Part shown: positions 5,346 through 58,264 of the stretch, piece after piece
How positions within the stretch are numbered: position 1 is the stretch's first letter
Layout: the number at the start of each line of letters is the position of its first letter
Source of the DNA: Methanocella paludicola SANAE
GTDB taxonomy: Archaea > Halobacteriota > Methanocellia > Methanocellales > Methanocellaceae
Length of the DNA: 64,000 nucleotides
NCBI RefSeq assembly: GCF_000011005.1
Contig: NC_013665.1
Span: 434,001-498,000 of the forward strand
Direction: 5' to 3'
Notes under the pieces: generated by a model
The model's input: only the letters and a program-made list of their open reading frames with translations
Databases searched by the model: none
What the model was told of the DNA's origin: nothing
Program-made: the position numbers and the translations under genes

Positions 5346-5413
5346 CCTGCAGGTGCATTTTTAATTTTATGCTGTGTTGTATTAGCCTTAATTATCGGAG
5401 CAGACCCCGTTTT

Positions 5414-5480
5414 TAAGCTCGCGAAGAGGTACAAGTCCGCGAAGACTGTTCTAGCTCGAAGACCGCGAAGCGGACTTTAA
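5414..5480 (+). repeat. Solo, degenerate D-family repeat arm between convergent genes
   Basis: The intergenic space between the dehydrogenase and pgk holds a stretch beginning TAAGCTCGCGAAG and continuing with spaced CCGCGAAG units. It resembles, with substitutions, the 85 bp inverted arms that flank the GxxExxY gene at 57.1-57.7 kb, but only one arm is present. AAGTCCGC (about 5434-5441) and GCGGACTT (5470-5477) can pair, so the segment can also form a hairpin that might help terminate both convergent transcripts. Confidence 0.6.
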
Positions 5481-5526
5481 AGCATGGATGAGATGATATT
5501 AATTCAACACAGTAAATTTAAAAAGG

Positions 5527-55552: not shown

Positions 55553-57103
55553 TTGGCACCGATTGTGGTTTTTGCCATTATTCAGGGTGTTAGGGCGGTC
55601 AAATTGAGCGGACAAAACGCAATATTGCCGGCGACGGCGGCCTTGCTGATACTACTTTATCTCATGCCCGTAGCTGCCGCCCAGTCCACGACCGGCCTAT
55701 CGTTATCCAACTCCAGCGACAGCGACGGGCGGGCGATATACGTCGAAGGCTACATCACGGGAGGCGACGAGGTGCACGATAAGACCACGTACCCCATACC
55801 CGGCGCCATCATATACTTCATCAAGGACCAGCAGGTGGTGAACCAGACGAAGTCGAACGCCATCGGCTACTACAACGTCGTCATCACCTCGGGCACGTAC
55901 TCCGTCGTCACCGCCGCGGCGGGATTCCAGACGCTCATGGACGAGCAGGAGTTCAAGGGCACGCGGACGCTTAACCGGCAGCTGAAGAAAGTGCCCTACG
56001 CGGGCATCGTGCCCTATGCCGTGAACCCCGTGCTCGAGACGAGCCCCGGCAGGGAGGCTGCGTGTACGATTTGCGTCGAGAACAGCCAGCTCCAGGACCA
56101 GTACGTCTCGTTCGGCCTCCAGACCCCCGAAGTCGATGGCAAGAACTGGGCCGGATGGTGCCCCGAGGGGCAGATGCTAGGCATCCGCAGCGGCTCCCAG
56201 CGCGAGATCACCTTCATGTTCCAGTATAACGGGGACCAGCGCGGGGCCTATGTCTGGTACGTGCTCGTCACCGGCGGGTCTTTCTACGCGAAGATACCCG
56301 TCGTCGTGGTCGTCAAGGACATGCCGTACGAGTCGCTCGACCTGTACTCGAACTACCCGAGCCGCACGGTGAAGGCCGGCGACACCGCCCGCTTCGTCTT
56401 CAGCGTGAACAACGGCTACGCCCGGGATAAGCCGCTGACGCTCGAGATACAGAAGCCCGACGGCTGGGGCGCCACGACGGGCAACGGCACGCTGTACTAC
56501 GCAGCCCGAGCCGAGGTCGCGTCCTCCGATTTCTGGGTCTACGTCCCCCAGGATACGCCCCCCGGCCCATACACGGTCAACCTCACCCTTAAAGGCCAGG
56601 ACGTTTCCTCGAACATGCTCACGCTCTACCTCCAGGTCGAGGGCACTCCCGCCTACGAGGCGGTGATCAAAGGCTATAAGGCCTCCGCCCAGGGCTACCC
56701 CTCGATCAACCTCACCGATGGCGACGCTTTCGACATACCTGTCCGTGTATACAACGACGGCGAGTTCCCCATCGACATAATGGTGACCGCGGAAGTGGGC
56801 GAGAACTGGGCTTACTACATGAGCGGCGCCCCATGGGATAAAATAACGGTCGAGCCCGGCTCCGGCTCAGACCTCATCATCCGCTCCCGCGTGCCCAACG
56901 GCACCACGGGCAATTACACTGCTAAGATATACCTTGACGGCGGCGGCCAGACTAAAACGCTCATGGCCCTCCTGAACGTGACCTCCAGCGAGTCGCCGCC
57001 CATTAAGTCGGATGCCCTGGGGGGGCTGCTGTTAGCTGGGGGAACTGCCGGGGTCATTACGGTGTCGCTACTGGCCACCGCACGAAAACGCCGTCGATAT
57101 TAA
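55553..57103 (+). CDS. Secreted surface protein with carboxypeptidase-regulatory-like and NEW3-like domains
   Basis: A protein of about 500-516 residues: signal peptide, a CarboxypepD_reg-like beta-sandwich (AIGYYNVVITSGTYSVVTA), two or more Ig-like NEW3-type domains (TPPGPYTVNLTL, NGTTGNYTAKIYL) and a C-terminal membrane helix ending in RKRRRY. Many N-x-S/T sites suggest N-glycosylation. The start is unclear: a TTG at 55553 is the longest option, a TTG at 55604 gives a better signal peptide, and the TATA box at about 55520-55531 is close to the first. Probably cell-envelope protein. Confidence 0.8.
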   Translation: MAPIVVFAIIQGVRAVKLSGQNAILPATAALLILLYLMPVAAAQSTTGLSLSNSSDSDGRAIYVEGYITGGDEVHDKTTYPIPGAIIYFIKDQQVVNQTKSNAIGYYNVVITSGTYSVVTAAAGFQTLMDEQEFKGTRTLNRQLKKVPYAGIVPYAVNPVLETSPGREAACTICVENSQLQDQYVSFGLQTPEVDGKNWAGWCPEGQMLGIRSGSQREITFMFQYNGDQRGAYVWYVLVTGGSFYAKIPVVVVVKDMPYESLDLYSNYPSRTVKAGDTARFVFSVNNGYARDKPLTLEIQKPDGWGATTGNGTLYYAARAEVASSDFWVYVPQDTPPGPYTVNLTLKGQDVSSNMLTLYLQVEGTPAYEAVIKGYKASAQGYPSINLTDGDAFDIPVRVYNDGEFPIDIMVTAEVGENWAYYMSGAPWDKITVEPGSGSDLIIRSRVPNGTTGNYTAKIYLDGGGQTKTLMALLNVTSSESPPIKSDALGGLLLAGGTAGVITVSLLATARKRRRY

Positions 57104-57121: not shown

Positions 57122-57206
57122 TAAGCTCGCGAAGCTTGTTAAGTCCGCGAAGGCTTTTCGAGCCCGAAGGCCGCGAAGCTGGCGCGAAGACCGCTAAGAT
57201 TTTTTT
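57122..57206 (+). repeat. Left inverted arm (family D) of the GxxExxY unit
   Basis: An 85 bp arm beginning TAAGCTCGCGAAGCTTG and ending CGCTAAGATTTTTT. It is the reverse complement of 57667-57750 with about two mismatches. It contains spaced CGCGAAG units. It starts 18 bp after the surface-protein stop. Confidence 0.92.
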
Positions 57207-57265
57207 ATTAATTGGTAATTGCTAAATACTTATATGCATATTATTGTAAATAAGCTGTGATTTAT

Positions 57266-57655
57266 ATGGAACCTATTCCCGAAGAAATAGAAAAGATCGT
57301 GACCCAAATTATCGATGCAGCATACAATGTCCACGCATACACAGGCAACGGACTGCTCGAAAGCGCATACGAAGCATGCATGCTCATCGAACTGGAAAAG
57401 AAAGGATTGACTGTTGAAAACCAGATACTATTACCTATTATATACGACGGCCACATCATACCCAACGCCTACCGCCTCGACATCCTGGTAAACAAATGCG
57501 TAATAGTTGAAATAAAAGTCGTCGAAGATATACTCCCGGTACACATATCCCAGGTACTAACATACCTGAGATTCACCGATCTCAGAATAGGCCTGATCAT
57601 AAACTTTAACAAAAAATACTTCGGCGATGCAGTCAGGAGAGTAAAACGAAAATAA
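57266..57655 (+). CDS. GxxExxY protein (PD-(D/E)xK-nuclease-like)
   Basis: A 129-residue protein with the family signature GLLESAY (residues 29-35, GxxExxY) and a later LDILVNKCVIVEIKVVE segment that looks like a PD-(D/E)xK core. The family is widespread in bacteria and archaea but has no established function. Start ATG 57266 follows GTGA by five bases; GTG at 57257 is less likely. The gene is clearly more AT-rich than its neighbours and favours ATA, AAA and TTA. It lies between two 85 bp inverted arms, suggesting acquisition as a unit. Confidence 0.85.
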   Translation: MEPIPEEIEKIVTQIIDAAYNVHAYTGNGLLESAYEACMLIELEKKGLTVENQILLPIIYDGHIIPNAYRLDILVNKCVIVEIKVVEDILPVHISQVLTYLRFTDLRIGLIINFNKKYFGDAVRRVKRK

Positions 57656-57666
57656 AATATTCTTTA

Positions 57667-57750
57667 AAAAAATCTTAGCGGTCTTCGCGGCAGCTTCGCG
57701 GCCTTCGGGCTCGAACAGCCTTCGCGGACTTAACAAGCTTCGCGAGCTTA
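57667..57750 (-). repeat. Right inverted arm (family D) of the GxxExxY unit
   Basis: Reverse complement of the left arm 57122-57206, nearly identical, starting 11 bp after the GxxExxY stop and ending 13 bp before the DUF2124 gene end. Being between convergent genes, the two arms could form a very large stem with the GxxExxY gene in the loop. Confidence 0.92.
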
Positions 57751-57763
57751 AAAAGATAGAGAG

Positions 57764-58264
57764 CTAAGGCTCAAACTTCTGCACCTGGATCGGGTCGATA
57801 TTCGCATCAATGACCACGTCGAAGGGCACCTTACCGTACCAGCCGGCCTTCTCGAACATGCTCATGAAGCAAATGCCCATGACTTTTCCGCCGGGCTTCA
57901 GGATAGCCTTAATACGCTCCGCAGTGCCAGCGGCGTCCACCTTGCTGCCGGGCATCGACAGGCCGCCTAAAACAATAACGAAGTCGGCGCCGTGCGGGTC
58001 AGCAGCGCCCCCGGCCTGCATGCCTATACCGGGCACATGCCAGACGGACCGGGTCTCCTCCAGGATCGCATCGGGGACCAGGAACATCTCCACGTGGTCG
58101 TTCCGGATGGTGTATGCGAACAGCTCGATGAAGGGCACGCAGGTGCCCGCGCTGCCGAGGAACACGATCTTATGGGCGCGCTGCATGCCCAGCGCCGCCA
58201 TCTGCGCCTTAAACGTCTTCAGCAAAGGCGAAAGCCCTTTTGTGGTCTCTACGACTTTATACAT
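57764..58264 (-). CDS. DUF2124-like methanogen protein
   Basis: A 166-residue soluble protein with KIVFLGSAGTCVPFIELFAY and FVIVLGGLSMPGS, a Rossmann-like pattern, matching the methanogen family DUF2124 as I recall it. It ends in a short DPIQVQKFEP. The gene follows nrpR directly (no gap), so it is likely in the same operon. Function unknown. Confidence 0.6.
   Translation of the reverse strand: MYKVVETTKGLSPLLKTFKAQMAALGMQRAHKIVFLGSAGTCVPFIELFAYTIRNDHVEMFLVPDAILEETRSVWHVPGIGMQAGGAADPHGADFVIVLGGLSMPGSKVDAAGTAERIKAILKPGGKVMGICFMSMFEKAGWYGKVPFDVVIDANIDPIQVQKFEP

Follow-up and report, generated by a model that had tools for sequence, protein, structure and literature searches.

GxxExxY genes usually lie between inverted arrays of short repeat units and may belong to a class of small mobile elements in bacterial and archaeal chromosomes

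The small palindromic elements of microbial genomes include REP palindromes, the presumed substrates of RAYT proteins. GxxExxY proteins are often encoded in multiple copies per genome and have, to our knowledge, no assigned function. Intervening sequences (IVS) of 23S rRNA carry terminal inverted repeats and a small ORF and are cut from the rRNA by RNase III; more than 25 years since they were discovered, their origin was still called unclear (PMC4990558). Here, we analysed a stretch of 64,000 nucleotides of the Methanocella paludicola SANAE chromosome (NC_013665.1, positions 434,001 to 498,000; referred to as the window), in which a GxxExxY gene lies between long inverted arms. When compared with the described systems, this unit has a small ORF enclosed by terminal inverted repeats, as IVS do, but neither the 23S rRNA location, as it is intergenic, nor the S23p ORF, as its gene encodes a GxxExxY protein. 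It contains a single ORF, PDDEXK_3, and no transposase gene, leaving the criterion for a DDE insertion sequence unmet. The criterion of many extragenic palindromes in the chromosome, typical of REP/RAYT systems, is met, with 46 type A (the arm of the window unit) and 69 type B arm matches.

A repeat search of the window retrieved an arm pair of 86 nt that is 98% complementary, with two mismatches and 457 nt in between (Table 1), in line with the near-perfect inverted arms with about two mismatches described in the initial annotation. That annotation had also placed a 129-aa GxxExxY gene of odd base composition in a convergent gene gap, and these features were borne out by the family match (TIGR04256, 2e-40), by a G+C content of 42% in the gene and 39% in the unit interior compared to 57% in the window, and by a plus-strand gene to the left and a minus-strand gene to the right of the unit. 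The length of 129 aa is counted from an ATG; an alternative GTG at 57257 would give 132 aa. Folding of the unit as DNA yielded -147.6 kcal/mol versus -66 +/- 4 for shuffled sequences (z = -20). As judged from a second genomic copy, the repeated segment runs from 57123 to ~57762, hence ~12 bp past the right arm and to one base from the DUF2124 stop codon. Far from the GxxExxY unit, the window also holds a gene-less relic with the ends CTGTGTTGTATTA and TAATTCAACACAG.

Table 1 Features of the GxxExxY unit and its surroundings (window coordinates)
Feature	Position	Strand	Basis or remark
Whole unit	57123..57762	+	segment common to window and L006, 98.6% over ~644 bp; flanks unrelated
Left arm	57122..57207	+	tandem degenerate CGCGAAG-type units, reading towards gene; 46 genomic arm matches
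Right arm	57665..57750	-	reverse complement of left arm
AT-rich leader, left arm to gene	57208..57265	+	sequence; one difference compared to L006
GxxExxY gene, 129-aa PD-(D/E)xK protein	57266..57655	+	TIGR04256, PF13366, AlphaFold2 model, Cas4 fold match
Outer right end	57751..57762	.	present in both genomic copies
Left neighbour, NEW3/CarboxypepD_reg protein	55553..57103	+	kept in relatives without unit
Right neighbour, DUF2124	57764..58264	-	kept in relatives without unit
Gene-less relic, same arm family	5372..5512	.	ends CTGTGTTGTATTA and TAATTCAACACAG enclosing one partial arm, 5415-5471

The window protein matches TIGR04256 with 137.8 bits, exceeding the curated cut-off of 35 bits, and PF13366 (PDDEXK_3) with 132 bits (1.4e-38). 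Its core residues D72 and E82-x-K84 correspond to the D ... ExK pattern of the PD-(D/E)xK superfamily, and both D72 and K84 are invariant in an alignment of 12 Methanocellales sequences. An AlphaFold2 model (mean pLDDT 95) gave its best matches to solved structures with the Cas4 proteins SSO0001 and Pcal_0546, although these were weak (E 8.6e-4, TM about 0.5). The family match and the confident Cas4-like model support the initial assignment as a nuclease, so the protein is likely a small PD-(D/E)xK enzyme, with nuclease activity itself being inferred. A PDB sequence search with the alignment and a search of the PADLOC defence library returned no match, and PHROGs gave weak matches only. Both GxxExxY sets analysed are under purifying selection, with dN/dS values of 0.047 for copies of the M. 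paludicola genome (L002-L004) and 0.089 for a Dyadobacter set.

The M. paludicola genome (one contig, 2,957,635 bp) encodes six GxxExxY proteins (L001-L006), all of which are flanked by inverted arms; in four of them, the arms differ in sequence from those of the window unit (L005). The remaining one, L006, duplicates the entire unit near genomic positions 1948000-1948600, 1.46 Mb away, with 98.6% identity over ~640-644 bp and flanks unrelated to those in the window. Eight differences separate the two copies in the shared stretch, of which six lie in the left arm and none in the gene. At the left-arm differences, L006 has the variants that are frequent among other, gene-less arms of the genome, a pattern suggestive, on sequence alone, of arms recombining with one another. 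A genome search with the window unit's left arm as query retrieved the type A arm at 46 places, including the four arms of L005 and L006; the other matches mostly form ~20 additional inverted pairs without a GxxExxY gene. Eight of these gene-less pairs are short hairpins whose loops measure roughly 55-60 bp; others contain nested palindromes. The type B arm, carried by L002-L004, has 69 genomic matches. At several sites (L044, L046, L050, L057), palindromes of differing families are nested in one another, and at L046 the inner palindrome lies between copies of a TTATCTTT repeat, a possible target duplication that we judge suggestive only. Target-site duplications, for which the initial annotation had proposed a search, were found neither at L001-L006 nor at the ends of gene-less type A pairs; old insertions could have lost one.

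Comparison with three other genomes of the family showed that two of them (G001 and G002) keep the convergent NEW3-type and DUF2124 neighbours and lack the GxxExxY gene. In G001, the same gap instead holds a palindrome that is built from CACAGAGG-type units and contains no gene. Both genomes belong to other genera, so exact insertion junctions could not be read. The initial annotation had considered the unit as acquired and possibly mobile without a transposase, and would have considered mobility unlikely for a fixed locus with no empty site and with arms found nowhere else. Neither situation applies, and the distant second copy, the dispersed arms and the gene-free neighbours in two relatives support its reading. 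Occurrence is patchy: within the phylum, 11 of 148 genomes carry a protein above the GxxExxY cut-off. No GxxExxY match was found in 50,697 phages and no confirmed relative on viral contigs, while 8 of 72,556 plasmids carry the gene; rarity on phages and plasmids is as expected for a chromosomal element.

To cover the family more widely, bacterial and archaeal genomes were scanned, yielding 80 GxxExxY loci from many phyla, 70 of which had enough flanking sequence. Arrays were scored as at least two copies of C[AG]CN[GA]AG (CRCNRAG, 7 nt), spaced 1-3 nt apart, within 300 bp. Such arrays were present upstream at 56/70 loci, in inverted orientation downstream at 59/70 and on both sides at 51/70, compared to none of 367 control positions (shifted positions on the same contigs) with both. 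At about a fifth of the 70 loci, the unit was missing on one or the other side, and additional unit flavours include CGCAGAT, CACGAAT, CGCAAAT, and ATCAYAG. Because the motif had been chosen after inspection of the same loci, a test independent of any motif was applied to other locus sets. Here, the inverted-repeat score exceeded the 99th control percentile at 25 of 29 GxxExxY loci from ten genomes and at 12 of 15 in Methanocellales; the ten-genome set overlaps the first census, to which each genome had contributed one locus. Eight previously unused distant plasmid copies showed clear arms in three cases, and most of the others were distant members with faint or absent arms. A plain inverted-repeat score with permissive gaps, applied to the 80-locus set, was weak (12/70 above the 99th percentile), because controls score high under this scheme and many arms are only ~30 nt long; it was superseded by the unit test and the stricter inverted-repeat score. 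Our literature search retrieved no description of GxxExxY arms, as the family is named only without them, and the commonest arm sequences were not found as text in the literature searched. Subscription papers were not covered, leaving an earlier mention possible.

Resemblance between arms follows the proteins rather than the hosts. When mapped on a protein tree of 142 loci, the unit classes switch 33 times, compared to 64.7 times with shuffled labels (0/200 shuffles as low), and across genomes arm similarity rises with protein identity (Mantel rho 0.25, 0/999 permutations). ATCAYAG arms mark one supported clade composed of one Dyadobacter and several Microcystis proteins; other GxxExxY copies in these genomes carry different arms and lie elsewhere on the tree. 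Likewise, paralogues of the same genome that are less than 45% identical have mostly unrelated arms. Such co-variation would be expected of a unit moving as a whole, or of a protein reading its own arms.

Several states of one insertion site were seen in Dyadobacter: the gap between leuC and leuD contains a GxxExxY unit in Dyadobacter sp. CECT 9623. Among 47 Dyadobacter genomes with both genes, this gap is empty in 15 (13-42 bp), gene-less in 6 (84-115 bp), and occupied by a GxxExxY unit in 13 (one frameshifted) or by a unit with a four-helix-bundle gene in another 13. On a leuC+leuD tree, the occupant state changes at least 15 times, and supported sisters differ in three cases: empty versus four-helix bundle (L226/L239), GxxExxY versus four-helix bundle (L246/L255), and four-helix bundle versus GxxExxY (L240/L249). 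Part of these changes could stem from homologous replacement of the operon. One genome (L250) carries a GxxExxY unit inside arms of the four-helix-bundle type. Two further Dyadobacter sites show a similar picture: a gene-less palindrome in L307 faces the unit in a close relative (L308), L315 has a RAYT-like gene with REP-like palindromes, and in L325 only the end of the GxxExxY gene is left together with its palindrome, representing a deletion product. The site occupied by a GxxExxY unit in L178 carries this RAYT-like gene in L315 and a RhuM-like gene in L309; both genes were named by eye, the RAYT-like one without a family search.

The four-helix-bundle gene at leuC-leuD matches TIGR02436, the S23p ORF family of 23S rRNA intervening sequences. 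In nine genomes, 23 of 24 tested TIGR02436 loci have inverted arms of tandem short units, which differ in sequence from GxxExxY arms; flanking arrays at L265-L294 include, for example, GTTTATGAGTTTATAAG, GAATGAGTGAATGAG, and AAGGAGGAAGGGAGG. No TIGR02436 gene is present in the Methanocella genome.

Some units stay at the same place across species, as observed in Microcystis (L169/L195/L196) and Gelidibacter (L171/L172), with the arm copy number in Microcystis ranging from ~4 to 9. An empty-site reading in Microcystis was dropped, as the flank at L201 is itself a rearranged gene array. Further arrangements were seen at single loci: partial, tandemly arranged copies of a GxxExxY gene's 3' portion and its arm in Gelidibacter (L194), a toxin-antitoxin-like pair between arm-unit copies directly downstream of a GxxExxY gene in Microcystis (L197:1840-2900) that is absent from relatives, and a GxxExxY gene between fabD and fabG in Sphingomonas parapaucimobilis (L330, NZ_CP155749.1), separated from these neighbours by 33 and 2 bp, with arm units upstream only.

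Our best explanation, which we regard as evenly poised, is that GxxExxY units form a class of small, selfish chromosomal elements of wide distribution. Their PD-(D/E)xK nuclease would act on the arms of its own unit, gene-less derivatives would exist beside them, and their way of working would be REP/RAYT-like. Such a unit would consist of a ~125-codon nuclease gene between inverted arrays of short degenerate units (CGCGAAG plus spacer in the window, mostly CRCNRAG or CRCNRAT plus 1-3 nt in the family), and would be copied as a whole, arms included, to new intergenic sites. Gene-less arm pairs may be non-autonomous or decayed relatives. The nuclease would recognise these arms, probably in the form of hairpins or cruciforms that arise in single-stranded DNA, and its cut might lead to copying of the arm-bounded DNA elsewhere, comparable to the presumed action of RAYT on REP palindromes. 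Mobility of the unit is well supported but inferred, as no movement was observed directly; it rests on the copies found at unrelated sites, on relatives without the gene, on empty sites, and on the patchy distribution. Likewise inferred are the nuclease as the mover, the action of the arms as DNA hairpins, and the manner of insertion. A nuclease that drives copying is the simplest inferred account of the arm-protein co-variation and does not exclude a passenger role, since other genes use comparable arms. The more specific proposal remains tentative, and we hold it with less than even confidence: GxxExxY proteins would be the movers of an unrecognised class of bacterial and archaeal mobile DNA, reading tandem 7-nt arm units and spreading gene-bearing and gene-less palindromes without target duplication, in niches shared with an IVS-type four-helix-bundle class.

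Several other explanations have to be weighed against this nuclease-driven unit. The arms could be the mobile part and the nuclease a passenger, with arm pairs that pick up various small genes while spreading through slipped replication, template switching or the trans action of an unrelated enzyme. Gene-less arm pairs indeed greatly outnumber gene-bearing ones, four-helix-bundle genes with comparable arms occupy the same leuC-leuD site, and both the toxin-antitoxin-like pair between arm copies (L197) and the varying arm copy number in Microcystis fit such a process. However, random pick-up would not produce arms that track the GxxExxY lineage rather than the host and that differ from four-helix-bundle arms, and the protein is under purifying selection; we consider a mere passenger unlikely, albeit a reading to be kept in mind. 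A homing-type process appears clearly less probable. Here, the nuclease gene would invade gene-less palindromes by cutting, followed by repair from a gene-bearing unit via arm homology, consistent with identical L005 and L006 genes whose units differ nearly exclusively in a left arm carrying variants of resident gene-less arms (only suggestive) and with the common nesting of palindromes of different families. Where direction could be read in Dyadobacter, though, the gene-less form was the deletion product (L325), and the 13-42 bp leuC-leuD gaps reveal palindrome-free sites beside occupied ones.

Spread through neutrality at the RNA level, with arms pairing in the transcript and RNase III excising the insert as in IVS, would agree with the shared build (PMC4990558), with insertions within the leuC-leuD and fabD-fabG operons and with the IVS protein family at leuC-leuD. 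Arm mismatches, on the other hand, show no excess of G-U-compatible changes in a sense-strand wobble test (138 vs 111, p = 0.10), with the bias at leuC-leuD arms even being in the opposite direction, and an Rfam search of seven loci gave only one sub-threshold chance match. The lack of a wobble excess favours action at the DNA level, and we regard the RNA-based reading as very improbable. Units that stay in place between Microcystis or Gelidibacter species, together with purifying selection on GxxExxY, might point to a static host module for repair, defence or junction resolution. An immobile module is hardly credible given several copies per genome, patchy occurrence, near-identical copies at unrelated sites, empty sites, and no match in the defence library.

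With convergent arrays, arm-protein co-change, gene-less copies, and empty sites, GxxExxY becomes a testable mobile-element family. Many dispersed CACAGAG/CGCAAAG-type repeats of microbial genomes would thereby receive a shared explanation, and such repeats are linked, by architecture and shared sites, to the intervening sequences of 23S rRNA.

Compared with known systems, the window protein is a clear member of TIGR04256 and PF13366, and the arm architecture is reported here as an addition to the searched literature on these families, which is silent on arms and mobility. Its best fold matches lie with Cas4 and RecB-type PD-(D/E)xK nucleases, but with only ~129 aa and a weak match, function cannot be transferred. 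Like insertion sequences with their MITEs, the unit bears a gene between terminal inverted repeats and has many gene-less relatives; unlike them, it has neither a transposase domain nor a visible target duplication, and each of its arms is an array of repeated units, not one terminal repeat. With 23S rRNA IVS, it has in common an ORF of ~120 codons between terminal inverted repeats and the same genomic niche, and TIGR02436 genes located outside rRNA likewise bear inverted arms of tandem short units, whereas the protein is unrelated, the unit is intergenic, and the arms show no sign of selection at the RNA level. REP/REPIN elements with RAYT (TnpA-REP) are likewise small extragenic palindromes with many gene-less copies and few tied to one small DNA-processing enzyme, and one Dyadobacter site holds a GxxExxY unit in one species and, as judged by eye, a RAYT-like gene with palindromes in another. 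In contrast to RAYT, the GxxExxY enzyme is of the PD-(D/E)xK type, with only PDDEXK_3 and GxxExxY matches and no Y1 HUH transposase, and its palindrome consists of tandem short units that enclose the gene, without a GTAG/CGTC tag being seen. What we rate as new is thus a proposed REP/RAYT-like way of working with an unrelated enzyme and a different arm design.
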